Shown: in pieces, positions 2,874-46,483 of the stretch
Numbering within the stretch: the first letter of the stretch is position 1
Layout: every line of letters begins with the position of its first letter
Assembly (NCBI GenBank): GCA_013368375.1
Contig: JAACJP010000005.1
Location: 868,001-932,000, forward strand
Reading direction: 5' to 3'
Length of the DNA stretch: 64,000 bases
Origin: Tricholomella constricta
Taxonomy: Eukaryota; Basidiomycota; Agaricomycetes; Agaricales; Lyophyllaceae
The notes under the pieces: generated by a model
Databases searched by the model: none
What the model saw: the letters and a program-made list of their open reading frames with translations, nothing else
What the model was told of the DNA's origin: nothing
Translations under genes and position numbers: made by a program

Positions 2874-3001
2874 AATGTGGCGCGGTCATGTGACCACGGC
2901 GATCAGGAAAATTACATAACCATCAAAAGTTATGACAGAAGGTTAAATATGTTTGGCGCTAGACGCGCAACCGATTTTCAACCCTCTCAACACAAACCAA
3001 C

Positions 3002-5956: not shown

Positions 5957-6313
5957 GTCGGGGAGACAACTTAATCCCCCCATCAACGAACCGACCTCGA
6001 CACGTAGGGCGTACCGCCGGGCCGACCGCCATTGTCAGGTGCAGACCACCTGACTCCCGAGGAGCAATCCGCAGGTTGCGTATTAACGCAACATTGGATG
6101 TCCTCACCACCATTCATTGCCGCACGGCACTTTGAGGCCGTGCAGTGGCGCTAATGCATCCACTACTCGTTAAGTCAAGAATACGTATTATACCTACGTA
6201 TTCTTGCATTATTTGATAGGTCTAGGTCGCCGGGACCTAGACCCTCCTTTTACTCTCCTTTTTCTGCCCAACTCCCTGGTGAAGATCGCTACACGCGATC
6301 TTAAAGGGGGGTA
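5957..6313 (+). other. 3' untranslated segment and polypurine tract of copy A
   Basis: Non-coding spacer between ORF3 and the 3' LTR. The run AAAGGGGGG at 6303-6311 lies two bases before the LTR. This is where the polypurine tract that primes plus-strand synthesis should be, and it fixes the LTR's left edge and orientation. The same tract precedes the 3' LTR of copy B (46486-46494, minus strand). Confidence 0.75.
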
Positions 6314-6534
6314 TGTAAGGACACCCACTATCTTATCTAATCTTGGTTATATAATCGTATCTTATCGAGACGATTACGCTATTGTTTGGCAACACCTTCT
6401 GGTGTTGCCTATTTAATTCATTACATTAATTAAGTATAAACAACCTTGTACACCTATACGTAGCAATCGACAGACTTGTCAAGCTTACGTCTAGTGTGAA
6501 CAACAAGGTCCCCAAATTCTGTAACCCCGTTACA
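6314..6534 (+). repeat. 3' LTR of copy A
   Basis: 221 bp from TGTAAGGAC to CCCCGTTACA, with TGTAA/TTACA terminal inverted bases. The last 15 bp form a palindrome (TGTAAC-CCC-GTTACA). The central hairpin GGCAACACC/GGTGTTGCC is shared by all LTR copies. The next base begins the protease region of element D, so copy A ends here. Confidence 0.9.
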
Positions 6535-9500: not shown

Positions 9501-10864
9501 GACACACCCAAGGCGACACACCATCGGACCAGAGGAAATTTGCGCACAGAGCTACGGACTTCATGATAGAGGACGGCAAACTCTGGAAAGTCAGCACCAA
9601 GGCTAACGACTGGGTCTCCCGAACAGAATGCATCCCGAGTGCGGATGGTTTCGACCACGCGCTCGAGGCTCACCTCACTAATGGCTGTTTTGGTCCTGAC
9701 CACATACAGCTACATTTGCGAGACCGCTTCTTTTGGCCCGGTATGTACACTGACAGCCGACAAGCTCAGCTCGAATGCCCCAAATGCAAATCCTTCGGAG
9801 CGGCGGCCAGAAACGCGGCACTTCAACCCATCCGACGCTCCAAACCGTTCTCCCTGGTGGCAGGGGACTACCTTTCCCTCCCAGTAGGCAAAGGCGGCTT
9901 CAAGACAGTCGGCCTATACATTGATGCCTACTCAAACCATGTCTGGCCCACAAAACTCAAAACGGCAGGCACTGGCAAGACAACAGTAACATCGCTCAAG
10001 AGAATCTCCCATGACTTTGCGGTACCGGACACCTTCATGGCCGACGGCGGCTCCCACTTCGACAACCAAGAAGTAGATGCGTTCTGCGATGAGCTCGGAA
10101 TCACCCACATCACCACAGCGGCATACGCGCCATGGGTGAACGGCCTCATCGAGAATGCTAACAAACTCCTTCTAGGTCGACTAAAGCGCTTATGCGCACC
10201 GGACCACGACAACATCGCCGACGAGACCGACGTCGACCCCAAATCTATACCCAGCAACTGGCCAGACCACTTCGACGAGGCCATCCGTCAACTCAACGAC
10301 CGCATCCTCCCCGCTCTCAACGCTACCCCCCGCGAGCTCCTATTCGGCCTCAGATTCCGCCCGGATAACCCACCAACAACAACAGCACTCCCAACTACCA
10401 CCACTGACACACACACAAATTTCACGCTCTCGGACACGTTCCGAGCAGACGCACACCTACGTGCACTACAAGACGCGGAGCGATGCAAAGAGTCCTTTGA
10501 CAACACATCACCGCTCACTACTTTCAACATCGGGGACCTAGTCCAAGTATACGACTCAGCCTCAGACTTCAACTATAAATCCAGCAATAAAATCGCTCCG
10601 AAATGGTCCAAACCTAGACTAATCTACGCTAAGTTTTCTAATTCATACTCTCTGAGTACACTGAGTGGTCTACCACTCAAAGGCATCACACATTCATGCA
10701 GGATGCGACACTATATACCCCTTCGAGGCACCCCCCTCGACCTTCTCAACCCCCGAGAAGACATTATACCCACAACAGAAGACCTCGACATCGCTACAGC
10801 AGAGGAAGCGATGTACGACGCAGTGTTCACACACCCAGGAACCACGTCTGGGAACGCTCCCTAA
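6561..10864 (+). pseudogene. Gypsy protease-RT-RNase H-integrase polyprotein (element D)
   Basis: One reading frame spans the region. At 6600-6690 a retropepsin tail is seen (FDVILGKPWL). The RT follows, with conserved blocks around 8100-8450 (DFAAGYYAVPL, LRMPFGLTGAPATF, WMDD), then a connection and RNase H. The integrase has a core Asp near 9868, MADGGSHF near 10037 and a catalytic Glu in NGLIENANK near 10140. A single in-frame TGA at 9050-9052 falls in the RNase H motif SK-R-TS, where Arg is expected, consistent with CGA to TGA. The downstream open frame that begins with an ATG at 9206 is simply the rest of this polyprotein. Confidence 0.88.
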
Positions 10865-10912
10865 ACGGTCTGCCTCTAACGACAGTGGCACACCAATACT
10901 TCCCCGGTCATC

Positions 10913-11167
10913 TGTCACGTCCACGTTACGTGTTGCTGGGTGGTAGATCGAGCGGCGCAACAGATTGCGTTCATGAGGAGGACGTTGGACGGTCGGGACG
11001 CCCGTCACTTGGAGGTGGGCAGATGTGGCTGTGCTGGCGGAGCCAGCCGAGCGGAGTCTGAAGTAACTTAGAACTTCGTCCGTAGTTGTAGATATAATTA
11101 TCATTCATTTCACCGGTTTCCACTTCGTTTTCCTTCGGTTTCCCTTCCGGACTCAAGCTAACTGACA
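10913..11167 (+). repeat. Candidate 3' LTR of element D
   Basis: It starts TGTCACG about 50 bp after the pol stop and ends ACTGACA, giving TGTCA/TGACA ends over 255 bp. No second copy is in the window to confirm the boundaries, and no clear polypurine tract is visible. The right edge coincides with the start of a Thr-Pro-Ala repeat frame of host-like sequence. Confidence 0.4.
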
Positions 11168-11168
11168 G

Positions 11169-11945
11169 CGGAGACCAGCCGTCTCCACCGCTACCACTCC
11201 CGCCACCACTCCCGCCACCACTCCCGCCGCCACTCCTGCCGCCACTCCCGCCGCCACTCCCGCCACCACTCCTGCCGCCACTCCCGCTACCACTCCCGCC
11301 ACCACTCCCGCCACCACTCCCGCCACCACTCCCGCCGCCACTCCCGCTACCACTCCCGCCATACACCCAAACTCCACTCACCCGACCTCGACTCCCGCCT
11401 CGACTCCCGCTACCACTCCCACCACCACTCCTGCTATCACTCCCGCCACCACTCCTGCCATACACCCGAACACGGCCATGAACCCGCACACGACCAATCT
11501 GAACATGATCATACCGCCAGCTCAGGACTACACGCTTACAGGGCCTGCAGCCGCGACTCGCGTCCTTGACGAAGGCCAGCCGCATCTCAATCTCTCAGAG
11601 GATGTCGTCACAAAGCGCCAGGCAGCAGCGCAGAAGCGCGCAGAGACCATGTCACTGAAAAAGGCCATTGCTGAAGAGAAGAAAAAGGCTCTGGCTGCAA
11701 AGAAGAAGGGAACGGCGGTGGCTGCCAGGAAGGCCTCAACGAGTAAGGCAGTCTCAAAGCCAGCACCTCGCACTGGGCAAACAGTGCCCGAGAATGTCCC
11801 AGAGCGCCCTCGCCGCACTGTGAAAGCTCCACCGTGGGCTGATCGGAGCCCTTCCCCTCCTCCCAAAAAGTATGTGTTTTCTTCCCGTTTGCATGTGAGC
11901 GCCGCTAACTGTCATGCACAATCCAGGCAAAAAAAGTCGGCTTGA
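11169..11945 (+). CDS. Thr-Pro-Ala repeat, Lys/Ala-rich protein, 5' end missing
   Basis: An open frame from 11169 encodes a run of T-P-A-T/T-P-A-A repeats to about 11466, then a Lys/Ala-rich helical stretch and a basic tail with RRTVKAPPW. Exon 11169-11869 joins 11927-11945 across a 57-nt intron with good signals (GTATGT donor, GCTAAC branch, CAG acceptor), giving a tail ending KKQKKSA. The first ATG in frame is 11478, but the repeats upstream are open, and the frame is cut at the putative LTR edge of element D. D may therefore have inserted into the gene and removed its start. No family is recognised. Confidence 0.45.
   Translation, partial: RRPAVSTATTPATTPATTPAATPAATPAATPATTPAATPATTPATTPATTPATTPAATPATTPAIHPNSTHPTSTPASTPATTPTTTPAITPATTPAIHPNTAMNPHTTNLNMIIPPAQDYTLTGPAAATRVLDEGQPHLNLSEDVVTKRQAAAQKRAETMSLKKAIAEEKKKALAAKKKGTAVAARKASTSKAVSKPAPRTGQTVPENVPERPRRTVKAPPWADRSPSPPPKKYVFSSRLHVSAANCHAQSRQKKSA
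11178..11466 (+). repeat. Tandem repeat of 12-bp ACTCCCGCCACC-type units
   Basis: More than 20 imperfect copies of ACTCCCGCCRCC run nearly uninterrupted. Because 12 is a multiple of 3, the array keeps one frame open and encodes Thr-Pro-Ala repeats. Confidence 0.85.
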
Positions 11946-13140
11946 GAGTATTAGTATTCTAGTTTAGCAGTTGATTGATAAATTAGCGCTGTGTCTGTAT
12001 ATACTTAGTGTGGATAAATAACAATGTCGCGAACATCGCGAACATATAGTCGCGAACATAGTCAGTCACGAACATAGTCAGTCGCGAACAAATTACTAAG
12101 ATGTTCACGAATGTATTAAAGGTTCTCGGATTTACAAATGTCTGAGCATTTTAAACAAGTGTTGACAAGCATTGATGATAGCAGGAGAGGGGAAAATCAC
12201 TGAGAATCGGGCATGTCATACAAGGCTGCGACTTCGCAAAAATAAACTAAGTCAGAAGTGCCGAGTTAGCCGAAGTGCCGAGTTAGCCGAGGTACTTCAC
12301 GTGGGGGTTTGACTTAGAAAAAAACAACTAAGTCCTAAATTGAAGACCCGAGGGCGCACATCAAGGGGATCTGTCTTGGCATCGTGAAGGACAGTGACAA
12401 CACAGTGCAGGAAGCTGCCAACAACAGCGATCAGAATTGTGGCCGCTTCTGGCCAGGCACGAATGGAACCCAAGCCCAGGCCAGCGCCCGAAATGGACCG
12501 GTAATCTGATGCCGAGCGGTACCCGGTTTGCAAAGTGCAGTGGACTGAACTTTCAAAGTTCAGTCGACTGAAGCATACAGTCAAATTTGCAAAGCTGTTT
12601 TACTGTGTGTTACAATCTAGTTTTGCAAAGTTCTTACAGTGTTGCCTGGAATGTTGGTATCAAATTCACGAATAACGTGCAGCATGATTTTACATTGAAC
12701 ATGTGCGACTCTTCAGTAATGCGGCATGCACTGTATGACTTCGGCTTATTTATCATGTACCCGCGCACCACTTCCTTCCAAAACATCAGAGACTACCGAG
12801 CGGAAATCGCCTTCCTCACTCTGGACCGCCGCCCGATCCGGGCATCAATCGCTTTCTAATAGACGTGGGCCGTATTGGAAGTGCAACCGTGGAGATAAAC
12901 TTCAGTCCAATTATAAGGCGGTCCATTCACGTGGAGCCCTGTAACCCAATGTCGCCGAGTCATCGAACACATTGTTCTTGCCTTGGTTCATTTCATCGGT
13001 GCGTCCACAACGGACGATCGAGCTGTCTCAATAATAATCTGACTCGAAAATATCAGGAAATGCTTTTCACATAGAGGATACACGAGGACAAGACATCAAG
13101 GCGTGGAGAGAATCGTGCACAAAATAGCCTCGAAATGCCA
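11946..13140. other. Intergenic, no supported gene
   Basis: Only short unconvincing ORFs. Short direct repeats of CGCGAACATAGTCAGT type lie at about 12027-12095, and a duplicated GTGCCGAGTTAGCCGA motif lies near 12257-12290. From about 13000 rightward the sequence matches the 3' flank of the gene at 15207-16165, marking the left side of a segmental duplication. Confidence 0.5.
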
Positions 13141-13199
13141 TCAGTACGGCACCAATTTCCCAACCCTATCTCCCTCTGCAATGAGGCCCGCCATCACCT

Positions 13200-14109
13200 T
13201 CATAAAGTCAGTCTCATACCATTCATCGTCCTCGAAGTTGATATCAAATGTGTCGTGAGTGATCTGAATCTGTTGCATGTTGCCAGGAACACCGTCCGCC
13301 ACGGCCTCACGGCCTCAGCGGTTCCCAATGAAATGAGCGCGGTGATGAAGATCATCTTGCTGCACGTTTCGTTTGGATACATCATGTGAACCTGAGATAA
13401 TTCGAACCATTCAGTCGACCTGCGGATTCGTAGTACGTGTTTTTTGACTGACCGGAAATCCTCCTTTCATGTTCTCCGGAACATTTTCTTTCAAAAATGT
13501 CTGTGCCATCGAAATCAATACCGCGAGGTCCAGCACATCGAGGTGCCGCTCCTCTTGCGGCGGCCAATCGCCCTGCTTCAACTCGCCCATCTCCTTTCTC
13601 TTCCTGTGTGCATAGCGCAAGCGCTCGTCCGTGTAATTGAACACTGGGATCCCATCGACCGCACACCCCACAATGCTGGTTGTGTTTTGCCACGAGCCCT
13701 TCCCAAGATGGAGGTAGTCATTACTGCAGTTGCTGATATAAAGCTTGTCGGCTTCGCCCAGCATGGTCATAACATATTCCAGCAATTCTGGAATGTCAAG
13801 GATCGTCAGAATGTCGTTTGCCTTCTGTGCTTTGCGAAAATCCTTGAGGTAGTTCTCGAAATTGGTCAGGCGGACTTCTTCGACCCTTTCGACTGGAACG
13901 GTAATCCGGGGTAAACGCATATCCTCCAAGGAGGAGCAGACATTTGAATCTTCGAGGAGAGTCGTTGGCCATTTCAGGGCCCGGGGATGATGACGCCTGT
14001 AGGCTTCGGCGACAAACGGGTTTGATACTCTGGCGGCAGGGCGTGAGAGCTGACAAGGAGTCGAGGAGGTCTCTGGCATTGAAATGCTGGACTCGGATGG
14101 GGTAGACAT
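13200..14109 (-). pseudogene. Duplicate of unknown two-exon gene, frameshifted
   Basis: Exon 1 is 14109-13453 (219 codons), the intron 13452-13392 (61 nt, GTCAGT donor, CTGAAT branch), and exon 2 starts at 13391. Exon structure and sequence match the paralogue at 15207-16165 with no length change in exon 1. In exon 2 an 8-bp tandem duplication (13301-13308/13309-13316) shifts the frame, so translation ends at 13200 instead of the ancestral stop near 13141. The last 45 or so residues, including the acidic INFEDDEWYETDF segment, are replaced. The start was chosen at MSTPSESS because the paralogue starts there; the frame is open further upstream. A MITE 61 bp upstream separates this start from the ancestral promoter. 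Confidence 0.7.
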
Positions 14110-14170
14110 ATAATTGATGATTGTTTTCTGGACACAACTTATGAGGTGCGGAAAATCTCTGAAGGCAGCC

Positions 14171-14837
14171 CAAGGGGGTGTCACATGTGACATTCCTTAT
14201 ATAGGGTTAGTTAGTTAGTCCAAGCCACCAGGTCGTTAAAAAGAAATATGACATCAGTTTAAAGGGACTTGTCCTTGGCCCAGGACCAAACCTGGGCTTG
14301 AATGGCAGTATTCATGAGAACTGCTCTCATCCAAAGGTATAGAAAGCACTAGTTTTATAATTATTGCTTGAAAAGGGTGTGGGAAGTTCAGGGTCCTAGG
14401 CTTATTGAAAGTCGCAACATGGTGTCTTAGTATATGGACCTACTGCAAACCACTTCTTTATTGTGGCAACGTTTCGGGCTGCTTACTATGTCTACTATTC
14501 TAATCTGACAATCATGTATACTGTTCCAAGTGTAATGCACAAGTCAAAGATTTTAAACAGTGGTTCCATTCATACCTTGGTGATTGTCAAAGTTTCAGCT
14601 TCAGAAGTGTACAGCTTGAGCACTGCATAACTGGTTTCTGTGAGGTATGCAACAGGGAAATGTGGAGGAGCGACAACATTGAGAATGATGTCAACAACAA
14701 CAGTCGGGTGACCGGACCGTGTGCCAGATTGCCTTATTGGGTAATTAGTTCCTAGCAATAGTTAGTTAGTCCAGGAGATTCTCCCGTTAAAAAAAAATCG
14801 ACCCTATATGCTTAATTTTTTTTCCGACACCCCCTTG
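14171..14837. mobile_element. hAT-like MITE (667 bp) with 8-bp target duplication
   Basis: The ends are perfect 12-bp inverted repeats, CAAGGGGGTGTC and GACACCCCCTTG. They are flanked by identical 8-bp copies of AGGCAGCC at 14163-14170 and 14838-14845. An 8-bp duplication with CAAGGGG-type ends is typical of the hAT superfamily. Subterminal motifs (TATAGGG and GTTAGTTAGTCCA) occur near both ends. There is no transposase ORF, so it is non-autonomous. Promoter sequence shared with the paralogous gene resumes right after the element. Confidence 0.85.
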
Positions 14838-15206
14838 AGGCAGCCCTTATATAGAATGGATGTCAGGGATGCACTAGATAAAATCGTGGCCTGCGATATG
14901 AATCCGTCTTTTGACAAGGGGCGTGGCGGCTAATCGTCAAGGAAGAAGATGACACTCAAAACACACTGGCGGGTTGTAATTTTATTAAATATCCAGGACC
15001 GCGGCCCAGTGAAAAGTCGGTCAGGTGGGGTCAAGCCGCCAACGCGGCCGTGTCCCGCGTCAACAAAGCTGTTACTTCATGTCCACAACGAACAATTGAG
15101 CTGTGACTCGAAAATATCAGAATTTTCTTCCACATAGATGTATAGACACAAGAACAGAACATCAAGATGCAGAGAAAATCAGGTACAGATAAGTCACGAA
15201 ATGCCA

Positions 15207-16165
15207 TCAGTACGGCAACAATTTACCAACCCTGTCTCCCTCTGCAATGAGGCCCGCCATCACCTTCATAAAGTCAGTTTCATACCATTCATCGTCCTCG
15301 AAGTTGATGTCAAATGTGTCATGAGTGATCTGGATCTGTTGCATGTCACCAGAAACACCGTTCGCCACGGCTTCAGCGGTTTCCAATGGAATGAGCGCGG
15401 TGATGACGATCATCTTGCTGCATGTTGCGTTTGGATACATCATGTGAACCTGAGATAATTCAAACTATTCAGTCGACCTGCGGATTCGTATGATTTTTAA
15501 TGACTGACCGGGAACCCTCCCCTCAAATTCTCCGGAACATCTTCACGCAGATATTTCTGTGCCATCGAAATCAACACTGCGAGGTCCAGCACGTCGAGGT
15601 GCCGCTCCTCCTGCGGCAGCCAATTACCCTCCTTCAACTCCTTCGGTTCCTTTCTGTTCCTGTGTGCGTAGCGGAAGCGCGCGTCCGTGTAGCTGAACAC
15701 TAAAATCCCATCGACTGAGCACCCTGTGATGCTGGTAGCGTTCTGCCACGAACCCTTCCCTATGTGGAGGAATCCGTTATAGTCGACGACGATTTGGAGT
15801 TTCTGGGCTTCAGCTAGCGTGAACATAACATATTCTAGCACAATGGGAATGTTGTTGAGGATCTCCGGGATGTTCTTTGCCTTCTGTGCATCGCGAAGCT
15901 CCCCGAGGTAGTGCTTGATATCGGCCCGGCGGCGTTTCTTGACCTTTGCGATTGGAAAGGTGATCCGCGGTAAACACATGTCCTCCAAGGAGGAGCAGAC
16001 ACCTGAATCTTCGAGGAGGGTTAATGGCCATTCCAGAGGATGTTGGAGCCTGTAGGCATCGGCGACAAAAGGGTTTGATACTCTGGCGGCAGGGCGTGAG
16101 AGTTGACGAGGAATCGAGGAGGTCTCTGGCACTGAAATGCTGGAGTCGGGGCCGGGGGTGGACAT
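15207..16165 (-). CDS. Unknown two-exon gene, intact paralogue (299 aa)
   Basis: Exon 1 is 16165-15509, the intron 15508-15450 (59 nt, GTCAGT donor, CTGAAT branch, CTCAG acceptor), and exon 2 is 15449-15207. The junction is phase 0 and gives 299 codons plus stop. The N-terminus is a Ser/Pro-rich disordered stretch with SRPAARVSNPFV. The body has an amphipathic Lys-rich helix, the motif GKGSWQNATSITGCSVDG, then EERHLDVLDLAVLISMAQKYL and an acidic tail. No signal peptide or membrane segment is seen. I do not recognise the family. The frameshifted tandem copy lies immediately to its left in the same orientation. Confidence 0.75.
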
Positions 16166-16802
16166 GACGAGAACTTGGATGAGAAGTCACTTCCGAGGGA
16201 CACAATAGGTGCAGAAATTATTTGAGGTGGATGTCAGGGATGTACTACTCAATTAAATCGTATGAACTCGTCTATCAAGGGGCGTAGCGGCTATGGCGGA
16301 TGGTTGTCATTGTCCTTACATGTCGACCGCGGTAGTTTAGGAATGGGACAGCTCCGCGTAATAAGAACAAGAATTGAAACAAGGATACAAACACGAGATG
16401 ACTCATGTGAGTGCATAACCTGAGTTGAAGGCTTTTCAAATTGAGTTTTCTTTTTTCAAGCAGTTGGGTCAACCCTGTAGGAGACAAGCAACCCTCCTCT
16501 CTGGTTTCGTTACTACTCTAGTGATTTTGAAGAAGACGAAGAGGATTCGATCGAGAATACACACGCAGTGAAATTGATTTCCCGACATCCAGGTATCCAG
16601 AACTCCAGGAAGTTCAAAAGCTTGATAAACTGGGAACAACGCTTACAGGCCATTTATTTCAGTCTATCCGTGTGGCGTTGCTTCAAACATATTCCAGGAA
16701 GAGTCTATAGAGCGAGAAAAAGTCGAGCTAGTGCTACCATAACCTAAAGCTGTTTTAGGGTGACCACGAAGGTGGACGAGTATAATTGCAAGACGGACGA
16801 GA
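16166..16802. other. Intergenic, nothing supported
   Basis: The first 120 bp is the promoter side of the 15207-16165 gene and shares GTGGATGTCAGGGATG with the sequence just right of the MITE. Beyond that only short ORFs occur, and none has recognisable features. Confidence 0.5.
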
Positions 16803-17477
16803 GTGTCAGATTCATGCATCAGAAAGGGTAACTTAGGGAGTTTGTACCCAAGATTGCAGAGGTTAAAGCAAAGGCCGACTCGCGCGTTGTTCTCCGTGGT
16901 CGACACATCGCAGAGCTTTAAAATCAAATCTCGCGCCGTGATGCCGTACAGTATGGGCTTCGAGTCCTGGTCTCTCGTGAGCGAAGAATACAGGACAGTA
17001 ACCATTGTGTTACAACGGTGCTCGCTCGCAGACCTTGAAGGGCGACGGGAAGCTGCATGCATGGTCATCCACATAGCCTATCGCAAGAGCCTGATCACAC
17101 CAGGGCTAGAGGTGCAGACTTTCAATTGTGTTTGTTCAGCGGCCCAAGTAGATCCTGAGGAGGAGGAGGAAGGCGAAGCAGGAGATGAGATTGCGCTGTG
17201 TTCAGAGGCCCAGAAGGAGGAAGGCGAAGCAGCAGAAGAAGAAGACGAAGAAGGTTCAGAGAATAGGGACGGAGACGAAGAGGAGGAGAGCGAAAAGGAA
17301 GAGGAGAAGGACAAAGATGAAGAGGAAGAGGAAGAGGACAAAGACAAAGACAAAGACGAAGAGATAGAGGAGAAAGTTCCCAGAACTAGTCTCGTCGCTG
17401 ATTATTTGCTTTGGTTTGATTCCCTTTACAAAATTGATGCCAATCTTTCCTGTTCTTTTGTAACACGCACCATATGA
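16803..17477 (+). CDS. Possible acidic low-complexity protein
   Basis: A 224-codon frame with an unremarkable N-terminal half and a Glu/Asp/Lys repeat region at residues 118-195. The acidic tract comes directly from a purine-rich tract (17155-17375), which by itself tends to keep a frame open. There is no domain, no paralogue in the window and no clear promoter. An opposing 136-codon frame at 16664-17074 is equally unsupported. Treat as doubtful. Confidence 0.25.
   Translation: MSDSCIRKGNLGSLYPRLQRLKQRPTRALFSVVDTSQSFKIKSRAVMPYSMGFESWSLVSEEYRTVTIVLQRCSLADLEGRREAACMVIHIAYRKSLITPGLEVQTFNCVCSAAQVDPEEEEEGEAGDEIALCSEAQKEEGEAAEEEDEEGSENRDGDEEEESEKEEEKDKDEEEEEEDKDKDKDEEIEEKVPRTSLVADYLLWFDSLYKIDANLSCSFVTRTI
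17155..17375. repeat. Purine (GA-rich) tract
   Basis: About 220 bp that is almost all G and A on the plus strand, with GAAGAGGAG and AAAGACAAAGAC motifs. Confidence 0.7.
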
Positions 17478-18031
17478 TGGCGATACGTGGCCCCATGGAC
17501 ATTGATTGCAATCTGCACCAGTCATGTTGACAAAAGTCTGCAAATTGACCAACATGGATTTGAGCATAGTTCCGTACAAAGTTCGGCTGGTTGTTGCCAA
17601 TGTCGGCAGGACTAGGGAACGCGAAAAAACCCCTTCAAAGTTAGTGACCGGAGGTTTCTAACGATTCAGATAGGGAAAGATTATCTTAAACGCACCGGAT
17701 TCATAGCTGATTCACCGGTACCACTAATGATACTTTTGTTCAACGAGGTAGATAGAACGGCCAAGTCATTGAGGCCCTTTTCGAGACCAGATCTTCGAGA
17801 CTTTGACTGTCTAATTCACAGTGGGCGATATTGAAGTTGTATTTGCGTGTGTGTCGCATCACCTGACCCTGACGGACGCGTCGAAGCGTCTCCTCTAAAT
17901 CAACGGCCAAATAACTTATCAAAGTCCTGACTGAAACCGGCGTCTCTCCTCACCAGAGTACCTCAGGGAGCCAGCTTGTATTTCTCAGCTACTAGTCCTA
18001 TCACCAAGGAGACGAAACAGTTCTCTCTTCG
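17478..18031. other. Intergenic, upstream of the Rsc7-like gene
   Basis: No gene is supported here. It contains the presumed promoter and 5' UTR of the gene starting at 18032. Confidence 0.5.
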
Positions 18032-19998
18032 ATGAAATCTGAGGTCCCAAAGATTGTAATCAAAGCACGAGTGCCCGCCGCGGCACCGCCAGCGCCAGTA
18101 TCAGTCCCCACCGTGACGATTCCTGGAACTTCTTCGCGTCTGATAGCCGCAGCGCCAACTCCAGAAGTGGAAGAAGAGGGTGACGATGACGGGATGGAGG
18201 TGGACAGCCCGGCGGGTGTGCAAACCGGGGAGGAGGAAGGCAACAGTAGAGTGGGAACTCCGCGACCAAGAGGCCGGCCGCGAGGGCGTGGACGTGGTTC
18301 AGCTAGTGGGACGAGTACACCGAGGGCTCGGGGACGGGGGAGAGGACGGGGGAGAGGACGGGGGCGGGGTCCACTGACGATACGACTGCCGAAAAGAGGG
18401 GATGAGGAGGGGGATGCTGGTGCTGAAGGCGATGTAGAAGGTGACGGAACGGGAGCTGCTGACTCTGAAGCTGGGGATGCGGAGGTCGAAGGTGAAGGTG
18501 ATGATACACCCAAGGAGAAGGAGGAACCTTTGGGAGGGGGGAAGCCATTTCGCAAGATACAGGGCAAAGTTTATATCATCGACGGCGACGAATTCATCAC
18601 CGATGAGGACCCCAAGGGCAACGAGAAGATTGATTTTTCTGGTATTCTACTGGGCGGTGCGTCTTTATTTCGCTCCCTGCGCGTCGTCTGTTCTATACCT
18701 TATCTCTTCAATAGGCCGTAGGTTTAAAGCATCCACATTTGTGCTTCCCAATAGGCATCCAACGCGACAATACATGCTCGCCATCGACGCAGCTCGGACG
18801 TCCGGGTTCCGCGACTCGCTCTACTACTTTCGACGCAACCTACTGGCTTTCAAGTTGAACGCGACCCAGCCTGAGAAGGACTACCTCATCTCGGAGGGTA
18901 AACTTGGCTCACATCTGCGCACGCGCAGCGTCACCCTCATCACCGCACGAAGTGCATTCAAACTCCATGGGAGCAAAATGGTCATTGGTGCGTTTCTCAT
19001 ATCAAATTCTAAATTCTGTTACATCTATAGCTTACATTCACTGTTTGAAAGACGGAAGGTGGGTCACAGACGACTACTACGAAGAGAAAGTCATCGAGAC
19101 AATCACGCCTTTGGGACTCAAACCTGGTGACCCCGTCGGGGAGCTTCCAGACCCCAACGCCCCCAGCCACACTAACGAAGCTCTTGCTGCGGCTGCGGCT
19201 GGTGCTGCTGCCGGGAAAGCGGATCGCGTTGGTGGCGGAATATACCGGGCGGGGGGACCGACGACGCTGTTTGGTGGGGGTGGATGGGGCCCTTATAGTG
19301 ACGGCCCATTGAACGCGGTCAGGAAGAGCTTGTTATCGCGTGACGGGGTGGACGAGGAGAATTGGATGTTTATGATGGCGACGCGGGTGGCGGAGTCTGG
19401 CGAGGAGTGGGCGAAGTGGAGGCGTGAGGGTGTGAAGCCTGGAGGGGGCGCGGATACGGGAGCAGGGACTTGGGAAGTGCCCAGCGTTGTGGGCAGTCAG
19501 GCAAAGCGGAAGATCAATGAGAGGGAAGACGAGGAAGAGGGCGTTGAGGAAGCGGAAGAGGAGGATGAGGTGGGTGAGGTGGGACCGCCTGGAGACGCCA
19601 GCACCAAGGTCGAGGCTGAGCCCATTACCAAGCGGCGGCGAGTTGAAGTGGTCGAGCTGCCTCTTGGGATCTATGAGCCTCACTCAGGCCTGATTCATTG
19701 TGAGAGTCTCTTTCTCTGAAATGCAGCGAATATGTCTGAATACCTCTTGTCAGATCGGGATGACACTCAACCGACTCGAAGTCGCTGGGAAGCCCTTCCC
19801 GATCCAGGTGGAAGGAAATATGTGCTGGGTGGCACCAAGGCTGGAAATGGAGCTTGGGCCCTTGCCTGGATCGATACTGTCATGGAAGTTAGCGACCGCC
19901 ATGCGGATGAGGACCGTTTATCTGCAAGTATGCAAACAATGCTAAGCGAGGCCGATGGTGCCACTCGGCAGGTTGTCGACTTGACAGTAGACTCGTAG
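18032..19998 (+). CDS. Chromatin remodelling RSC/SWI-SNF subunit, Rsc7/Swp82 family (596 aa)
   Basis: Four exons: 18032-18656, 18715-18987, 19052-19699 and 19754-19998. Phases join correctly and give 596 codons plus stop. The acceptor of the third exon could instead be 19031, which adds seven residues in frame. The conserved CRC-subunit domain spans about residues 175-320: VYIIDGDEFITDEDPKG, LLGGRRFKASTFVLP, YMLAIDAARTSGFRDSLYYF and DGRWVTDDYYEE. A second conserved block, YEPHSGLIHY-RDDTQPTRSRWE, is rebuilt only when the last intron is removed, which supports the model. The N-terminus carries RGRGRGRG AT-hook-like repeats and acidic stretches; an acidic linker and KRRR precede the second block. 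In yeasts these proteins are subunits of nuclear RSC or SWI/SNF. Family assignment is from remembered motifs. Confidence 0.88.
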
Positions 19999-20217
19999 TA
20001 TCTTCATTGCTTTTACTATATACTTTTGCGCTTGATTCTTTCGTAGCGATATCATTATACAATTAGCTTACAACATCTTACATGTTGATCCTCGTCGACG
20101 AATTCTTCGCAGGAGATAGTCACATGATGCGCCACGCCATATATGTGAAAAGCGTTTTGAGACCCACATATTTCTCTCCCAAGTTGTCGACGGACGTAAC
20201 TACTTCGATTGACGTTA

Positions 20218-21235
20218 CTACTCCGGAAGACCTGTGGAGTCCATCTCATTCGCATGCCGAAACATCTGCGCTTGGTGCACCAGGCCCCATTCCCTAATCT
20301 TCTCGAAGTTTCGACAACTGTGCAAGATATCGAACCGCGGAGTTTGTTTTTGTCCGGCAGATTTGTCAAAAACGATGGTGCTGATATCGGCAGAACACTG
20401 AAGCGACTGTCGTAGAGAATTGATGCAATGTGCGAGATGTATCTCGCGTTGCTCGGCTGACTCTCTGGGGTTTGATGGATATGAGTCTATCTGAATCAGA
20501 GACGTCTCTGCGCGCCACAGAAATGTCGGAATACATACCTGGATGGAGTGCCTTTCTAAGCATATTCTAAGCGAACCCTTATGAGCAACGGGTAAAATCC
20601 GGCAGCGGAAGGCTCACGAGACAGTGTAATTGGTGGAAGACATCTAACCCCACGATATATTCTGAATCGCTGTGAGGGATCATTGTAGTTGCGTTGACTA
20701 GACGTTGAGCCTGGTACTCTGAAATTTGCGATATCCCGACTATAACAAGGAACATAAGTTCAACTTTCAATGACGGCGACAGAAATCAATGTGCACAATT
20801 GTAGAGATCTGACCAAGCTTTATCGACTTCGTCGGACGGAGGTCTGCTGTAGATATCAGGTGCTTCACCACCAAAAATCCCGCTATTGAACTTGACGACT
20901 TCATATTCAACGACGTCTTGTGCTGGGGCTGTGGATGGATCGAAGTGTGAGAAACGCACGATTTCGACGTTACTGTGAAACATACAGTATATAATCTGAG
21001 CGTTGGGATACCTACAACGGCTCCAAATCAACAGAGAGACGCCGGTAGCCTCCAGAATGACGAAGCAAATGACAACCCAGAGAGGTACATTGACGCGCCT
21101 AGCAGACCACCTCGCATTAGATACGGGTGGTTTCGAATGAGGTGCGTCCCCATAATATAGATGTGTGTCGGTGTTCACATCCTGACTGCCTCTGTTGATC
21201 ATCGAGTAATAAAACGTTTCTCTGAGAAACGACAT
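20218..21235 (-). CDS. UstYa-family (DUF3328) oxidase-like protein 1 (258 aa)
   Basis: Five exons on the minus strand: 21235-20986, 20928-20797, 20739-20618, 20566-20539 and 20462-20218. Lengths sum to 777 nt, in frame. One N-terminal transmembrane anchor (VPLWVVICFVILEATG) is followed by the family's PAQDVVEYEVVKF segment, a PPSDEVDKAWSDLY motif and two HxxHC motifs, HQLHC (exon 3) and HLAHC (exon 5). UstYa-type proteins act in RiPP biosynthesis, where they oxidatively cyclise peptide cores, and the two His/Cys motifs are thought to be catalytic. Exons 2, 3 and 4 have exactly the same lengths (132, 122, 28 nt) as in the gene at 24714-25738. The start was chosen at the ATG nearest the TM segment; a longer open frame upstream has no support. 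Confidence 0.87.
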
Positions 21236-21827
21236 GGATGGCGCTCTGTAGTGTAGAGTGGATAGAGAGGCGGAGTCCTGGATGTGGTCAACAAGTTCGT
21301 TGTTCAAGCGTCCACCTTTCCACGGATCACCAACAAGCTCAGGGCGTAACTCACTTACTTTAACCGTAATTGACCGATAAGTGCGCGAACCAAGTAGAAG
21401 CATCCGCCACCAAATCTCCAGCCAATGGCAGTCAACAAAGGACTTCTGCCATTCAAGAGAGGAAGTGTTGTGACCGTCGATGGCCAAGGCCGGTCAGAGC
21501 CGTATCAGATTTAGGTACTGTCAGTCCAAAGATCGTTGACGGGCATACAAAGAATGGGAAGTTGAGCTGCCTCAAAGGCCCGGGGGATAAGGGGACCCAT
21601 TCTGATTGTAGGTAGGAGAGGAGACTACCTGCTATGCGATAACCTTGCATCCGAAGAATCAATATAAGCTGAAATAACGGAGATGAGCTAACAAACCGCT
21701 GGGGACGGAAGTGAGCTTCTGTACGCGTGCTAATACGCTGCCCGAAGACGCGACGGCTTATAAGAGGGCAGCAGGTTTTACAACCGCTCGTCGTCTCTAC
21801 TTCACAGAGAATAATCCCCATCTCACC
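21236..21827. other. Divergent promoter region
   Basis: Separates the minus-strand UstYa-like gene from the plus-strand small secreted protein. A TATA-like TTATAAGAGGG at about 21758-21768 sits 60-70 bp before the ATG at 21828. No other gene is seen. Confidence 0.5.
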
Positions 21828-22268
21828 ATGAAGGCCTTCTTTGTATTCGTTAGCCTCTTTGTTGCTCTGTCTGCGGCCGCTCCTACTAAGGAAGCTGTAG
21901 GTGTTCAGTAGCGTCCACTGGAATGCCTGCTATGCTCACCTCGTAGCTACGATAGAGGTTCGCCGAAGTTTTAGAGGATATCTCATTCCCCACCGTCTAC
22001 CACGATCACAACGTTGCATACCAGCGGAACGTCGCAGATGGTAAAGACACGAGTTTGATTCATACATATCGCATGGCACTAATATGTTAAACAGAAAAGC
22101 AAGTTGGCCAGAACGTGGGTATTCAGGTATAAGATTGGGGTGCACAGACTCACCCGGAATATATTATAGATGTCAGTTGACATCTCATTCAGCGAGTATC
22201 ACGGTAACGACATTTGCTTGGTTGATACGACCACGAGCGCTGACGCTGATATAGAGGAAACGCAATAG
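21828..22268 (+). CDS. Small secreted protein (94 aa)
   Basis: Exon 1 (21828-21896) encodes a clear signal peptide, MKAFFVFVSLFVALSAAAPT, similar in style to that of the repeat precursor at 24231. Proposed further exons are 21956-22040, 22095-22126 and 22170-22268. They are in frame with GT-AG introns of 59, 54 and 43 nt; intron 2 has a good CACTAATAT branch site. The mature part is short and acidic, with no repeats or dibasic sites in the model and one Cys. It lies between the two UstYa-like genes. It may be a second peptide substrate, an effector-like secreted protein, or unrelated. The exons after the first are less certain. Confidence 0.5.
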
Positions 22269-23222
22269 GATCGTGGATTCAACCACTTTGTGAGTTCACC
22301 TACATAAACCATGATGAACCCAACTCGGACGTTGATCTGATCATTGACAGTATGTAGGTCCTAAGAACGTCATTCGCCCACGTTGCGTCCTTGTTCAGGA
22401 AGTTGAAACCGTTATTTCGAGCATAAGGAGTTCCAATATATTTTGATCATCCAGCGACGAATTTCATTCGCACTATAATCCTTGAATGACTGAACCCGCA
22501 AGCCATGCGGCTGTGTTAGAAGAGTTGAATCCAACACAAGGAATAGATATAGCTTACGATAAAATCCAGCCAAGCAAGCTACCTCGTTATCGCTTTATCG
22601 CTCTACTTGCAGGAACTCTTGCTGCACAGCCCTTGTTTGCAGTTATTTGATGATTTGATCTTGAAGCTACTAGTAGGTCACTGCTGCTTGACTGCTACTG
22701 TGGTCGCATAACTCCCTTGCTTGAAATCTCGAAGGTAGTTTTTAACTACGCTATTAGAAGTCCATGCAAGAAAAGGTTTTTCTAAGGTTTGCCACAATAC
22801 GACGAGCGAAATCCAGCAGTGAGGCAGGCGGTCTCCTGACTCGACTCCGAACCTTACACGAACCAATGAGGACGTGAATCGATGGAACGGGACATCGATC
22901 TATGTGTCCTATCTTTGTGCGTTTTTGAATCCTTGATTCATAAAGGTTGCATTATACAGGTTTTTGGTATTTTCAGTACAGCACGATTTCGTCAAAAAAG
23001 TAGATATACACGCGGAACGGCTCATATCGTATCGTCGAGGTCGGAGGCAGGAAAGGGCTAACTAGAGAATGAATAAGAAGTAAGTTCCGCGTCATTGAGC
23101 TTGCCTGGACTCACTCGAGAGCTGTGGCGTAACGCTCTTGACAATTCGACTGCGTTGGAATGAAGTCATGTCAGGCTTCAGACTAAAGGTGTGCTCGATT
23201 TTTTACCCTCAAAGACACTGCG
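22269..23222. other. Intergenic between the secreted protein and repeat precursor
   Basis: Apart from a 54-codon ORF at 22486-22650, nothing is supported. The right end is the 3' UTR of the minus-strand precursor gene. Confidence 0.4.
22486..22650 (+). CDS. Small ORF with a hydrophobic C-terminal segment (54 aa)
   Basis: ATG to TGA. A polar N-terminal half is followed by the basic SKLPRYR and then the hydrophobic FIALLAGTLAAQPLFAVI. It could be a tail-anchored microprotein, a decayed N-terminus of a membrane protein, or chance. No second copy is in the window. Confidence 0.2.
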   Translation: MTEPASHAAVLEELNPTQGIDIAYDKIQPSKLPRYRFIALLAGTLAAQPLFAVI

Positions 23223-24231
23223 CTAATAGGCGGCAATTTCAGAATCCACTGGAATAACATTAGCCAGCTTTTTCATGCGTGATGATTTCTGTTTACCGTT
23301 TGCCTCGCCTCGCTTATAGGCTGCGATAGCCTGGTCTACTGGAGGGAAAACATCATTTTTCGAACGGCTCAAGAACGTAGGCCGGAATTACCATTCGCCT
23401 CGCCTCGCTTATAGGCTGCGATAGCCTGGTCTACTGGAGGGAAAACATCTTTCTGGAACGGCTCAAGAACGTAAGCCGGAATTACCATTTGCCTCGCCTC
23501 GCTTATAGGCTGCGATAGTCTGGTCTACTGGAGGGAAAACATCATTTCTCGAACGGCTCAAGAAAGCAAGTCGGAATTACCATTTGCCTCGCCTCGCTTA
23601 TACGCTGCGATTTGGTTATCGACTAGAGGGCAAATATCATGAGTCTTTGGATGGCTAAAGATGTAAGCCGGAATTACCATTCGCCTCGCTTCGCCGATAC
23701 GCTGCGATTTGGTTGTCCACTGGAGGGAAAACATTATTTCCTGAGCCGTTCAAGAAAGCAAGCCGGAATTACCGTTTGCCTCGCCTCGCTTATAGGCTGC
23801 GATAGCCTGGTCTACTGGAGGGAAAACATCATTTTTCGAACGGCTCAAGAACGTAGGCCGGAATTACCATTCGCCTCGCCTCGCCGATACGCTGCGATTT
23901 GGTTGTCCACTAGAGGGAAAACGTCATTTCCTAAGCCGTTTAAGAAAGCAAGTTGGAATTACCATTCGCCTCGCCTCGCTTATACGCTGCAATTTGGCTG
24001 TCCACTGAAGGGCAAATATTATTCTTTGAACGGCTCAAGAACGTAAGCCGTAATTACCATTCGCCTCGCCTCGCCTGTACGCTGCGATCTCGGAGTCGAC
24101 GTCTCTGGCCTTGAGCTTCAAGGTGTGTCATCAGGATGAAACTTCTGCAAATTAAACAAAATACTGACATATGCAGGAGCAGCCAATGTTGATGGGACAA
24201 TAACACTGAGGACTACAAAAAATAACTTCAT
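23223..24231 (-). CDS. Repeat RiPP precursor, Kex2-type, one core per exon (160 aa)
   Basis: Eleven exons: 24231-24169 (signal peptide MKLFFVVLSVIVPSTLAAPA), 24115-24058, 24004-23963, 23909-23868, 23814-23773, 23719-23678, 23622-23581, 23527-23486, 23433-23392, 23338-23297 and 23248-23223. Exons 3-10 are exactly 42 nt, all phase 1, and each encodes one 14-residue unit V-D-x-x-I-A-A-Y-(K/R)-R-(G/S)-E-A-N. The ten xx pairs are SE, SQ, NQ, QA, NQ, NQ, QT, QA, QA and SE. The first unit follows a leader containing LKARD. The last ends IAAY-stop with no dibasic site. KR/RR would be cut by Kex2 in the secretory pathway, releasing ten near-identical peptides. UstYa-like genes on both sides suggest oxidative modification of the invariant IAAY. 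All 483 nt stay in frame, and every intron (48-55 nt) has GT-AG ends. The final product is unknown. Confidence 0.9.
23249..24057 (-). repeat. Amplified exon-intron unit, about 95 bp, eight copies
   Basis: Each unit is a 42-nt core exon plus a 52-55 nt intron. Introns as well as exons are strongly alike: GTAATTCCGG donors, GAGCCGTTC in the middle and TTTTCCCTCYAG acceptors. The gene therefore grew by duplicating whole exon-intron modules. Two subtypes interleave, one reading VDQA/VDQT and one VDNQ/VDSQ. Confidence 0.92.
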
Positions 24232-24713
24232 ATTTGGCGGTGAGTGGTCGTTGTTATTCGATGAAGAGGGCTTTTTCTGAGTGTGCCCATACAGACTATC
24301 TCGACTTTATGCAGTGTTGAAATCGACGGTCACATGTGAAGTGCTAGAACATCTTTTCTCTCCGTTCTCTACGGTTTGTTATTTGACATCTTCCTTTCTC
24401 CTGCAATGCCTCCTTCTGATCGATTCAAAGAATCTCTGGATGTGCACGCAAGGCTAAGGAACCCCTGACGCCATACGAACACCAGCTCTTCCCACATCTG
24501 TCCATGGGTATCGGGTTGATCAATACCTTAGATTGGCTGGAAACTGAGTAGCCGACATCCCGTGTTAGTGGGTCCAGTGAAAGAAGGTAAATTGACATCG
24601 ACTTTCTTGGTTCTGGGGTTCGGCGCCGCGACCACCATATGACCCCTACGGTGGGTCACTTATATTCGTCACAGTTAAAGCCTGACCACTCCGCCTGTAC
24701 GACCCACACTGTC
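24232..24713. promoter_or_regulatory. Shared divergent promoter of precursor and UstYa-like gene 2
   Basis: 482 bp between two divergent start codons (24231 minus, 24714 plus). A TATA-like TTATATTC lies about 50 bp upstream of the plus-strand start. A shared promoter would fit co-expression of substrate and enzyme; that is inference from position only. Confidence 0.5.
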
Positions 24714-25738
24714 ATGGAACAGAGCTACGAGCCTCTCCTCAGTAAAGACTCTGCAGATATAGATTCTGAGCCTTTGAGGGTTGCACCTCACCTCCCAACT
24801 AGGCGCACAAAAGCAGGCTGGTTCTCTAGACGCATTGCAGTACCTCTCTGGATTGTCGTATCTTTCGCTATTCTACTTGCCGTTTGCATTCCCTTCTTTA
24901 TCCGGAGTAGTATCCAAAGCCACTGTAATCATCCAAATTCTCAACTCCTCTACTGTATGTCATTTGCGTTTTCTTGAAAGCTGAATGCTAACGCGCGAGT
25001 AATTTCGCTTCCAGCTCCAGCCCAGGATGCGATCGAATACAAAGTCGTAAAACTCTATCAAGGCGGACACGAGAGCGAACCACCCGATATCTACTCCAGT
25101 CCACCATCTGATGCAGTTGACGCCGCCTGGCAGGACCTATACAGCTGTATTTACCTCCTCTTACGATATCGCCACTGGTTAGAACTAATACCTCGGTCTA
25201 GTCGGCGTTTCTCAGATTCCCAACGATCAAGCTGGCTGGCTTGTCAATAAGACCATGGAAATTCCAGGGAGCAATTCGCAATATATTGTGTTGCTCGATG
25301 TCTTCCACCAGCTACACTGCCTCGTACGTCCTCTGCTTTTGAATGATTATAACCGACTGAGAACCCTGTTTCGACGTACAGAATAACCTCAGAAAAGCTC
25401 TTCATCCCGGTATGTATTTCGATCCTCGTCGCCAAGTCACTGCGTGCATGGTCTTACGCTCAATATCCGTAGAATACTACAAGATAAGCCCTGAGGAAGC
25501 AAAGGAGGAAGAACGCCATCTTTCTCATTGCCTGACCACATTACGGCATTCGATTCAGTGCTCATCTGATATCAGTGTTATTCCCTGGCAGAAAAAAATC
25601 GGGGCCAGAAGGGAACTTCCTCAGTTTGATATCTTACACAGCTGCCGGAACTTTGAAAAGATCAAAGAATGGGCGCTCGATCACCGAGCCAAGATAGAGA
25701 ACGGCGAGGATGGGAGAATCAGGGCATCGAGTCACTGA
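24714..25738 (+). CDS. UstYa-family (DUF3328) oxidase-like protein 2 (262 aa)
   Basis: Five exons: 24714-24954, 25015-25146, 25202-25323, 25382-25409 and 25473-25738. All phases agree; 789 nt including stop. The N-terminus has an acidic MEQSYEPLLSKDS head and a TM anchor (VPLWIVVSFAILLAV). PAQDAIEYKVVKLY and PPSDAVDAAWQDLY follow. The two family motifs are HQLHC (exon 3) and HLSHC (exon 5), and the protein ends after FDILHSCRNFEKIKEW. The gene is divergent from the repeat precursor. It is clearly paralogous to the gene at 20218-21235 with the same intron positions. Ustiloxin-type pathways also use two UstYa-like proteins, which fits a pair acting on one precursor. Confidence 0.9.
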
Positions 25739-26901
25739 GGGTTGGGTTATCCACCAATAATCTTGCATACCATGCTGTTTACCATTTCGCAAGATTTTCC
25801 AAGATTCTGGAGCGGAATTTCCAAGTCGGAAAATGGGCTCCATACTCATGTCTGCTCAATGGGCGCCAGCTATTCTTGTTTTGGGATCTGTTTCTCAAGC
25901 TCTAAACTCAAAACAAGCACCTTATTGATGCCAACGTACTGGACATTCAAAAATTCAAGCTTCGAGCATGTACTACATGTCAGAGATTGTCTTGAAGTTG
26001 TCCGATCCATATGGTCAGCTGACTCTTTCCGCGTGCCCTCCGGGGACACAGCTGTCACAGCCAGCGCTCTACATTCCAATTATATTCGGCAACCTGTTTA
26101 ACATTGCGGGGCATCGGCAGCGCGGTGCGGGCCAAAGCCAGGACAGGACAGGACATCTTCGCCATCAACTCTGTCGACCGCTGCCGAACTCGTTCCTTGT
26201 GACTTCAATTTGTGAAGCCTGCACTTTTTTAACTCCAGTTGGCGATAACGTTCTAAGGTTGTTTCCACTCAAAGGGGATACAAAACGTTCACTTTCAACG
26301 CGTCCGTTTCCGTCCCTCCGGCCCGCGAGACTTACGCAGAACAAGATGCGACGCTCAGCGCGTGGACGGATTCATTCCGCCATCTTGCTCCTGCTTTCCT
26401 CGATCACGGATGGATGATCGAGCTCCCTTGTCTCCGCGACGAAGGTGAGACTCCGCGCCCCTTCTTGTCTTGCCCGAGAATCTGAAGTCCTCCGTCGCTC
26501 CCTCACTCGACCTCAGATTCCCTCGGGTAAGCAGAAATTGCACCAGTCTGTCGCACCTGTATTCTGACACCTCAGATATCTCAGGTTCAGTCTTCGGTCG
26601 TCACAGCCGTTTAACAATAACCCACCATCCTCCCCCTGTCACCTCCTACTTTATTTATTCTCTCTCTCATTTCATTTACCTACAAATATATCACTAGACT
26701 CTCGTAGTTATGACCGTTTGTAGCGTTTCCCGCGATCGAGCCTTTTCCAGGGTTCCGCCGCTGTTACAGGGCGAGCCCGTCCATCCATCCATCCATCCGT
26801 GTCCGGCTAAACCCGTTCGACTTCCCTTAAGTCAGCTCTCCAAGACGACCGAAGGGTGATTAGAGATAGTTATATCCTCGCGAAATCCTTGAAGTGCCGT
26901 C
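25739..26901. other. Intergenic, no supported gene
   Basis: Several short ORFs exist, but none has a recognisable domain or splice-consistent continuation. A CCAT microsatellite lies at 26781-26798, just upstream of the gene at 26902. Confidence 0.5.
26781..26798. repeat. CCAT microsatellite
   Basis: Four and a half copies of CCAT in a row. Confidence 0.8.
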
Positions 26902-45280: not shown

Positions 45281-45570
45281 ATGTGATGCATTATACAACG
45301 CTTGTTGGCATTAATTTGTGATGCATCATACACTGTAGCGTAGTGTTGTTGAGTAATGCATCACGTTGTCGTTAAGGCCCCACCTCAGCGCCCTTGCACT
45401 ATACCTCCTGTGCAGGCAGGCACCCTCGCTCCCCACTACAGGTGATGCATCACTAACTGATACCAGCGTTGGCCAGTGATGCAAGAGACCCCCGTCGTCT
45501 AGTATGCACAATACCTTCTATCAAGCGAGTCATGCATTACCCAGCTATATTGGCATTGACCGGTGATGCA

Positions 45571-46263
45571 TCACTTTCAGGAGTTTCCAATGACGAATCA
45601 TGCATTATACGATCATTGGCGGTGCTCTCTTCACCTTCCTGCCCTCGTCCGGCTGATGCATCACTTACAGGAATTCCCATTGACGAATCATGCATTATAC
45701 GATCATTGGTAGTGCTCCTTTTGCCTCCCCGCCCTCGTCCGGCTGATGCATCGCTTACAGGAATTCCCATTGACGAATCATGCATTATACGATCATTGGT
45801 CGTGCTCTTTCCACCTCCCCCCCCTTGCTCGGCTGATGCATCACTTACAGGAATTCCCATTGACGAATCATGCATCATACGATCATTGGCAATGCTCCTT
45901 TTGCCTCCCCGCCCTCGTCCGGCTGATGCATCGCTTACAGGAATTCCCATTGACGAATCATGCATTATACGATCATTGGTAGTGCTCTTTCCACCTCCCC
46001 CCCCTTGCTCGGCTGATGCATCACTTACAGGAATTCCCATTGACGAATCATGCATCATACGATCATTGGCAATGCTCCTTTTGCCTCCCCGCCCTCATCC
46101 GGCTGATGCATCGCTTACAGGAATTCCCATTGACGAATCATGCATCATACGATCATTGGTAATGCTCCTTTTGCCTCCCCGCCCTCGCTCGGCTGATGCA
46201 TCACTTACAGGAATTCCAACCGACAAATCATGCATCATACGATTATTGGTAATGCTCCCCTCG
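45571..46263. repeat. 90-bp minisatellite, about 7.7 copies
   Basis: A 90-bp unit containing GGCTGATGCATC, TTACAGGAATTCCCATTGAC and CATTATACGATCATTGG repeats in register from 45571 to the LTR at 46264. Divergent relatives extend left to about 45280. Since 90 is a multiple of three, frames stay open on both strands, which produces long but meaningless ORFs. The array is cut abruptly by the retrotransposon LTR. Confidence 0.92.
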
Positions 46264-46483
46264 TGTAACGGGGTTACAGAATTTGGGACCTTGTTGTTCA
46301 CACTAGACGTAAGCTTGACAAGTCTGTCGATTGCTACGTATAGGTGTACAAGGTTGTTTATACTTAATTAATGTAATGAATTAAATAGGCAACACCAGAA
46401 GGTGTTGCCAAACAATAGCGTAATCGTCTCGATAAGATACGATTAGATAACCAAGATTAGATAAGATAGTGGGCGTCCTTACA
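46264..46483 (-). repeat. 3' LTR of copy B
   Basis: 220 bp, reading TGTAACGGGG...GTCCTTACA on the plus strand. The adjoining TACCCCCCTTT (46484-46494) is the polypurine tract on the minus strand. It differs from the LTRs at 53699 and 57242 at a few positions. Confidence 0.9.

Follow-up and report, generated by a model that had tools for sequence, protein, structure and literature searches.

Does a tandem repeat in the genome of the mushroom Tricholomella constricta (Lyophyllaceae, Agaricales) encode a secreted peptide precursor, and what would become of its product? The repeat lies in a 64,000-bp stretch of DNA, hereafter the window, which corresponds to C5:868001-932000, a part of contig C5 in the 44.1-Mb, 118-contig assembly. 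We found on the minus strand of the window an 11-exon precursor gene with ten VDxxIAAY cores, one per exon, flanked by the genes of two UstYa homologs (A and B). From the sequence of the locus, we consider it probable (roughly 75%) that this is a dikaritin-like, KEX2-processed precursor, whose peptides are probably modified by UstYa enzymes. Dikaritins are described as secreted KEX2-processed repeat precursors (KEPs) that Kex2 cleaves and UstYa homologs cyclise (PMC10512285, PMC6514808), and the listed examples are ustiloxin, phomopsin, asperipin-2a, victorin and epichloecyclin (PMC10512285). Two features of the present locus are unusual: each core occupies a symmetric micro-exon of its own, and no T. 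constricta entry was seen in the protein searches with the precursor or with B.

Exon structure of the precursor gene

The minus strand was read directly, and the exons were then joined and checked by script. The resulting gene runs from 24231 to 23223 and has 11 exons, which measure 63 nt, 58 nt, 42 nt (eight exons) and 26 nt (Table 1) and together make 483 nt, or 160 codons and a stop. All ten introns are of the GT-AG type, with lengths of 48–55 nt. Intron 1 is in phase 0 and introns 2–10 are in phase 1, so that every 42-nt exon is symmetric. The micro-exon length is exactly 42 nt in eight of eight cases, and the eight repeat introns measure 52–55 nt. If the region is left unspliced, stops are present in all three minus frames. 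The coordinates, strand, sizes and phases agree with the preliminary description of this DNA, which had proposed a signal exon, ten micro-exons (58 nt, eight of 42 nt, and 26 nt) and a total of 160 codons.

The encoded protein begins with MKLFFVVLSVIVPSTLAAPAY, and MKLFFVVLSVIVPSTLA resembles a signal peptide by eye. All ten cores conform to VDxxIAAY: VDNQIAAY and VDQAIAAY occur three times each, VDSEIAAY twice, and VDSQIAAY and VDQTIAAY once each. Core positions 3 and 4 are the most variable (SE, SQ, NQ, QA and QT), while Ile and Tyr are invariant in 10/10 cores and Tyr is always the C-terminal residue. The dibasic pair KR or RR follows the core in all nine linkers, which gives the repeats separated by Kex2 sites that define a KEP. 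The linker continues with GEAN in eight units and with SEAN in the fifth, and the tenth core leads directly to the stop. Thus, the ten cores, the dibasic sites and the final unit stopping after IAAY had been described correctly, whereas GEAN had been ascribed to every linker and is replaced in one.

Evidence that the repeat is coding

Tandem repeats of about 95 bp could also be a non-coding minisatellite, or the true gene could be the plus-strand open reading frame (ORF) at 23639-24046, which exists as previously noted and is open for 135 aa. In line with such a reading, the mean divergence among units is about equal in exons (0.179) and introns (0.184), and the evidence for coding therefore sits in the codon pattern and not in overall conservation. 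We examined this pattern in nine 42-nt units, eight of them micro-exons and the ninth the end of exon 2. The ratio of nonsynonymous to synonymous differences (pN/pS) among them is 0.34 in the minus frame of the gene model and drops to 0.093 when the two variable core codons are set aside, an exclusion chosen after looking at the data. In some units, stops interrupt both remaining minus frames and two of the three reverse frames; the third reverse frame, the only open one, has a pN/pS of 1.39. When the 16 variable column patterns were put at random positions 20,000 times, the mean number of variable residues was 9.5, as against 4 of 14 observed, and no rearrangement (0/20,000) was as low. The relatedness of the units is preserved in this test, because whole column patterns were moved. 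Furthermore, the repeat unit is not a multiple of three, so that along the plus-strand ORF the reading frame shifts from one unit to the next.

The introns point the same way. In the eight repeat introns, the GTAATT and AG ends are invariant although 25 of the 56 columns vary. A degenerate pattern of AAY, dibasic pair, linker and GTAA donor has nine matches in the 44-Mb genome, all in the precursor gene, and the same pattern read backwards, as a control, has none. The observation of the precursor, with its phase-consistent exons and its constraint at the protein level, is confirmed as real and beyond chance. We give next to no credence to a minisatellite or to the plus-strand ORF as the gene.

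UstYa genes on both sides of the precursor

UstYa homolog B and the precursor gene are divergent, with their start codons 482 bp apart, and UstYa homolog A lies 2.0 kb past the precursor stop, with a small gene (gene D) in between. Both A and B thus represent the UstYa/DUF3328 gene beside the precursor that is characteristic of dikaritin loci. Both also have the two HxxHC motifs given as a hallmark of the family (PMC12048977), in the case of A depending on the exon model, and they share 53% identity in the alignment. The model of A is less certain than the clean five-exon model of B, because its fourth intron has an unusual, uncertain acceptor (CCAGAG). A protein search with B gave 165 matches, and the 120 listed all belong to PF11807; the best among those listed is a Tephrocybe protein with 50% identity. 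The name T. constricta was not seen among these 120, many of which are nameless or have their names cut. No solved structure matched B at E ≤ 1.

A search of the genome with PF11807, in which 11/11 candidates were scored, found three loci, on contigs C5, C20 and C65. At the third of these, C65:104735-106107, a UstYa pair has reading frames that are divergent in sequence and convergent in orientation. No precursor-like array was found near this pair by Tandem Repeats Finder on 20 kb. The Kex2-type P domain (PF01483) has two matches in the genome, both on contig C12. The flanking UstYa genes, which were absent from the preliminary description, are the strongest support for a UstYa-type pathway.

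A duplicate of the locus on another contig

The region C20:174829-184447 is a rearranged copy of positions 20141-26296 of the window. The DNA identity between the copies is 91% for UstYa A with its flank and 77–84% for the remaining blocks. The C20 copy is split by about 5.65 kb of DNA with ends like those of a long terminal repeat (LTR; TGTTGG...CCAACA) and a 5-bp target duplication (GCACT), as judged by eye. Its precursor is made up of four exons (63, 58, 42 and 26 nt) whose splice positions match those in the window, and its last intron has 46 nt instead of 48. The exon model is supported by this persistence of exon lengths and splice sites. The number of units changes between the copies, from ten core exons in the window to three on C20. 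On C20, the core of the middle unit differs and the unit contains a premature stop; the C20 copy of UstYa A lacks one histidine of its HxxHC motifs and is likewise interrupted by a premature stop. No counterpart of UstYa B exists at the matching place of the C20 copy; another UstYa gene lies on C20 at 185 kb and also carries a premature stop. The C20 cluster is probably decaying, while the precursor and UstYa B of the window are intact.

Could the window array be a relic too, a former precursor array that is now silent like its duplicate? The premature stops in the C20 precursor and both UstYa genes and the LTR-like insertion show the decay of the duplicate, the UstYa A model of the window needs its unusual acceptor, and neither the precursor search nor the 120 matches listed for B showed a T. 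constricta entry. However, the window precursor is free of stops and keeps 10/10 splice pairs and constrained units, next to an intact UstYa B. A silent relic is, in our view, very unlikely.

Within the window array, unit 4 matches unit 9 exactly in the exon and the preceding intron, and a 287-bp period corresponding to three units was also detected, as expected of repeated tandem duplication. Among units, the similarity of exons and introns correlates at 0.01 with the exon before and 0.44 with the exon after the intron. These weak correlations do not cleanly resolve the duplicating unit.

Apparent absence from annotated proteins

A protein search with the precursor, which scored the 7,993 candidates with the most words in common, gave a single match up to E = 10 (P0001, 231 aa, E = 0.062), which is seemingly unrelated. 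The precursor and UstYa B, and probably A, seem to be absent from the public protein set or to be modelled very differently. It had been predicted that gene finders would miss the precursor; this agrees with the want of a credible match, with the caveat that the locus does have a public protein, that of gene D, apparently from the same assembly.

Proposed pathway and its alternatives

We propose the following steps, in this order. The 11 exons would be spliced to yield a secreted precursor with ten VDxxIAAY cores, one per exon. This precursor would enter the secretory pathway and a Kex2-type protease would cut after KR or RR; a Kex1-type carboxypeptidase would trim the basic residues, so that most products would be [G/S]EAN-VDxxIAAY peptides. 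These may be oxidised by UstYa A, UstYa B or both, most likely via the invariant C-terminal Tyr, which is perhaps linked to the invariant Ile, and the products would be exported. A cross-link inside IAAY is a first guess because Ile and Tyr are invariant in the ten cores, and the ring could differ from known ones, since the spacing and order in IAAY are unlike those of known cores. The computed [M+H]+ values of the predicted peptides are 1264.580 for GEANVDNQIAAY, 1221.575 for GEANVDQAIAAY, 1251.585 for GEANVDQTIAAY, 1237.570 for GEANVDSQIAAY, 1238.554 for GEANVDSEIAAY and 1294.591 for SEANVDNQIAAY. Those of the bare octapeptides are 850.43–893.44, and a loss of 2H corresponds to 2.016. The preliminary description had already connected the repeats to Kex2 and UstYa-type pathways. 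The two flanking PF11807 genes, the Kex2-type P domains and the duplicate of the cluster strengthen that connection.

Alternatively, the precursor might be spliced and cut by Kex2 and Kex1 to give linear peptides with no cross-link, while the UstYa enzymes act elsewhere, for example on the product of gene D, which adjoins UstYa A. The KEP peptides studied in agaricomycetes (Coprinopsis, Lentinula and Pleurotus) are reported to be linear or minimally modified (PMC9769878). DUF3328 genes are reported near 30.1% of ascomycete KEPs and just 6.1% (103/1680) of basidiomycete KEPs, with about 5.3 KEPs per basidiomycete strain, and Umemura suggested that in Basidiomycota either the cyclisation motif differs or cyclisation might hardly occur (PMC7329392). 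On the other hand, the precursor gene stands between its divergent neighbor B and, beyond its stop, A, the PF11807 search found only three loci genome-wide, and Tyr and Ile do not vary in any of the ten cores. Purely linear products therefore appear unlikely to us, if clearly less so than a relic.

Several observations weigh against a dikaritin-like precursor. Besides the linear agaricomycete peptides, they are the similar divergence of exons and introns, the branch-point motifs of the repeat introns, which look weak by eye, the uncertain acceptor in UstYa A and the lack of a related protein in the search with the precursor. In addition, the tyrosinase domain (PF00264) has four matches in the genome, on contigs C29 and C11, and none on C5, so that the locus lacks a mark of the ustiloxin/phomopsin subtype. 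The asperipin-2a cluster is described without a tyrosinase (PMC6514808).

Comparison with known systems

The precursor resembles dikaritins in its near-identical cores parted by KR or RR, its predicted secretion, its PF11807 neighbors with two HxxHC motifs and the Tyr in each core. Ether bonds are thought to form on Tyr, and those of ustiloxins and phomopsins join Tyr and Ile (PMC7329392); the core of the precursor likewise holds both residues, each invariant. However, the ustiloxin and phomopsin cores YVIG, YAIG and YVIP have Tyr followed by Ile, whereas in VDxxIAAY Ile comes first and Tyr is C-terminal. The precursor also differs from the listed dikaritins in coming from a basidiomycete and in having no tyrosinase match on its contig. 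Each of its cores is on its own exon, which may be a further difference.

Agaricomycete KEPs have a signal peptide and repeats with dibasic sites, an architecture that the precursor, with its signal-peptide-like start, appears to share, and some KEPs in Basidiomycota adjoin DUF3328 genes (PMC7329392). Since UstYa-adjacent KEPs have already been counted in Basidiomycota, the precursor is better regarded as a new variant than as the new basidiomycete family that had been suggested. UstYa-like genes as such occur in mushrooms, with 16 in Pleurotus, for example (PMC8893723). The published KEP screens began from annotated or predicted proteins (PMC7329392, PMC9769878), and unlike the KEPs found in this way, the precursor has no credible match in a protein search. 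High intron density has been named as an obstacle to finding amatoxin-type gene clusters (PMC9233826). In the open-licence PMC literature, covered mostly as titles and the beginnings of abstracts, we noticed no fungal precursor whose cores each have their own exon, and no paper with the strings VDSEIAAY, IAAYKR or IAAYRR was found in that literature.

Similar exon layouts are described in animals. The caerulein and magainin genes of Xenopus laevis contain tandem peptide-encoding exons, and unequal crossing-over has been proposed for their copy number (PMC3731216). They differ in being animal genes with no UstYa chemistry, and we liken them by description, not by sequence. In Schistosoma micro-exon genes (MEGs), secreted products are encoded largely by short symmetric exons whose skipping keeps the frame (PMC5825161). 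The MEG exons differ in their length of 6–36 bp, and alternative splicing is reported for them. To our knowledge, the MEGs are not Kex2 repeat precursors. Tentatively, the T. constricta precursor might be seen as a cassette of symmetric one-core micro-exons in which exon skipping and unequal crossing-over would keep the frame, with the number and mix of cores tuned by splicing and evolving fast; we hold this to be possible rather than probable. More repeats reportedly bring higher transcript levels and a higher output of ustiloxin (PMC10512285), which is a possible reason for keeping ten copies.

Gene D and the rest of the window

Gene D is divergent from UstYa A and is not counted in the pathway. 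A protein search with it gave one match, T. constricta D9615_003284. Its two introns match this public model over the first 58 residues, and the models diverge afterwards. The agreement is a limited check on the intron calling at the locus, as the public model is itself presumably predicted. In D9615_003284, DISF...YH occurs twice, at 21977 and 22179, and its DNA pattern matches nowhere else in the window. The 63-aa model contains no dibasic repeat. Gene D is possibly a second, differently processed peptide precursor paired with UstYa A. It was rejected as a second copy of the precursor, because 1757 of 5000 shuffles reached its local alignment score.

We scanned 30 proteins with Pfam, namely UstYa B, UstYa A, the precursor and 27 raw reading frames drawn from 157 of at least 75 aa in 7000-20500 and 26000-46300. 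Apart from UstYa, the scan of the 27 raw frames, which could miss genes in short exons, yielded only the retroelement domains and the Rsc7/Swp82 chromatin subunit piece listed in Table 1. The cluster is likely bordered on the left by the Rsc7/Swp82 piece. Three Pfam matches came from the precursor, each with no passing stretch, and we disregarded them as repeat artefacts; the best, Exonuc_VII_S, has 32.1 bits and is over its curated cut-off of 24. A tandem repeat of 90 bp with 7.8 copies lies at 45560-46258 and is adjoined by near-identical large repeats (683-6534, 46264-52115, 47161-53921 and 57240-64000; about 99% identity, several inverted). This tandem repeat was dismissed as a second precursor, as no repeated core was noticed by eye on the minus strand.

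Table 1. Coordinates of the features identified in the window
Feature	Position	Strand	Remarks
Retroelement	7001-10861	+	Reverse transcriptase, RNase H and integrase domains (Pfam)
Rsc7/Swp82 chromatin-remodelling subunit piece	18438-19127	+	Pfam, 92.3 bits
UstYa homolog A	20218..21202	-	247-aa model; HQLHC and HLAHC; PF11807, 170.7 bits (cut-off 25)
Gene D, small secreted-protein-like	21828..22132	+	3-exon model, 63 aa; public model D9615_003284, 90 aa
Precursor, last exon: VDSEIAAY, then stop	23223..23248	-	26 nt, exon model
Precursor, micro-exon VDQAIAAY-KR-GEAN	23297..23338	-	42 nt, exon model
Precursor, micro-exon VDQAIAAY-KR-GEAN	23392..23433	-	42 nt, exon model
Precursor, micro-exon VDQTIAAY-KR-GEAN	23486..23527	-	42 nt, exon model
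Precursor, micro-exon VDNQIAAY-KR-GEAN	23581..23622	-	42 nt, exon model
Precursor, micro-exon VDNQIAAY-RR-SEAN	23678..23719	-	42 nt, exon model
Precursor, micro-exon VDQAIAAY-KR-GEAN	23773..23814	-	42 nt, exon model
Precursor, micro-exon VDNQIAAY-RR-GEAN	23868..23909	-	42 nt, exon model
Precursor, micro-exon VDSQIAAY-KR-GEAN	23963..24004	-	42 nt, exon model
Precursor, exon 2: LKARD, VDSEIAAY, RR, GEAN	24058..24115	-	58 nt; length and splice positions same in C20 copy
Precursor, exon 1: signal-peptide-like MKLFFVVLSVIVPSTLAAPAY	24169..24231	-	63 nt; in C20 copy 6/21 codons differ, 3 synonymous
UstYa homolog B	24714..25738	+	5 exons, 262 aa; HQLHC and HLSHC; PF11807, 181.9 bits (cut-off 25)

Implications

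With one core per exon, similar peptide genes could go unnoticed in genome surveys. Were the cassette layout common among intron-rich mushrooms, the small number of UstYa-linked KEPs in annotated-protein surveys of Basidiomycota would be easier to explain, and if the precursor is expressed and modified, part of the basidiomycete shortfall of UstYa-linked KEPs may stem from annotation. The locus offers a testable UstYa substrate in which Ile stands ahead of a C-terminal Tyr. It is also a natural system for core numbers that vary via exon copies.
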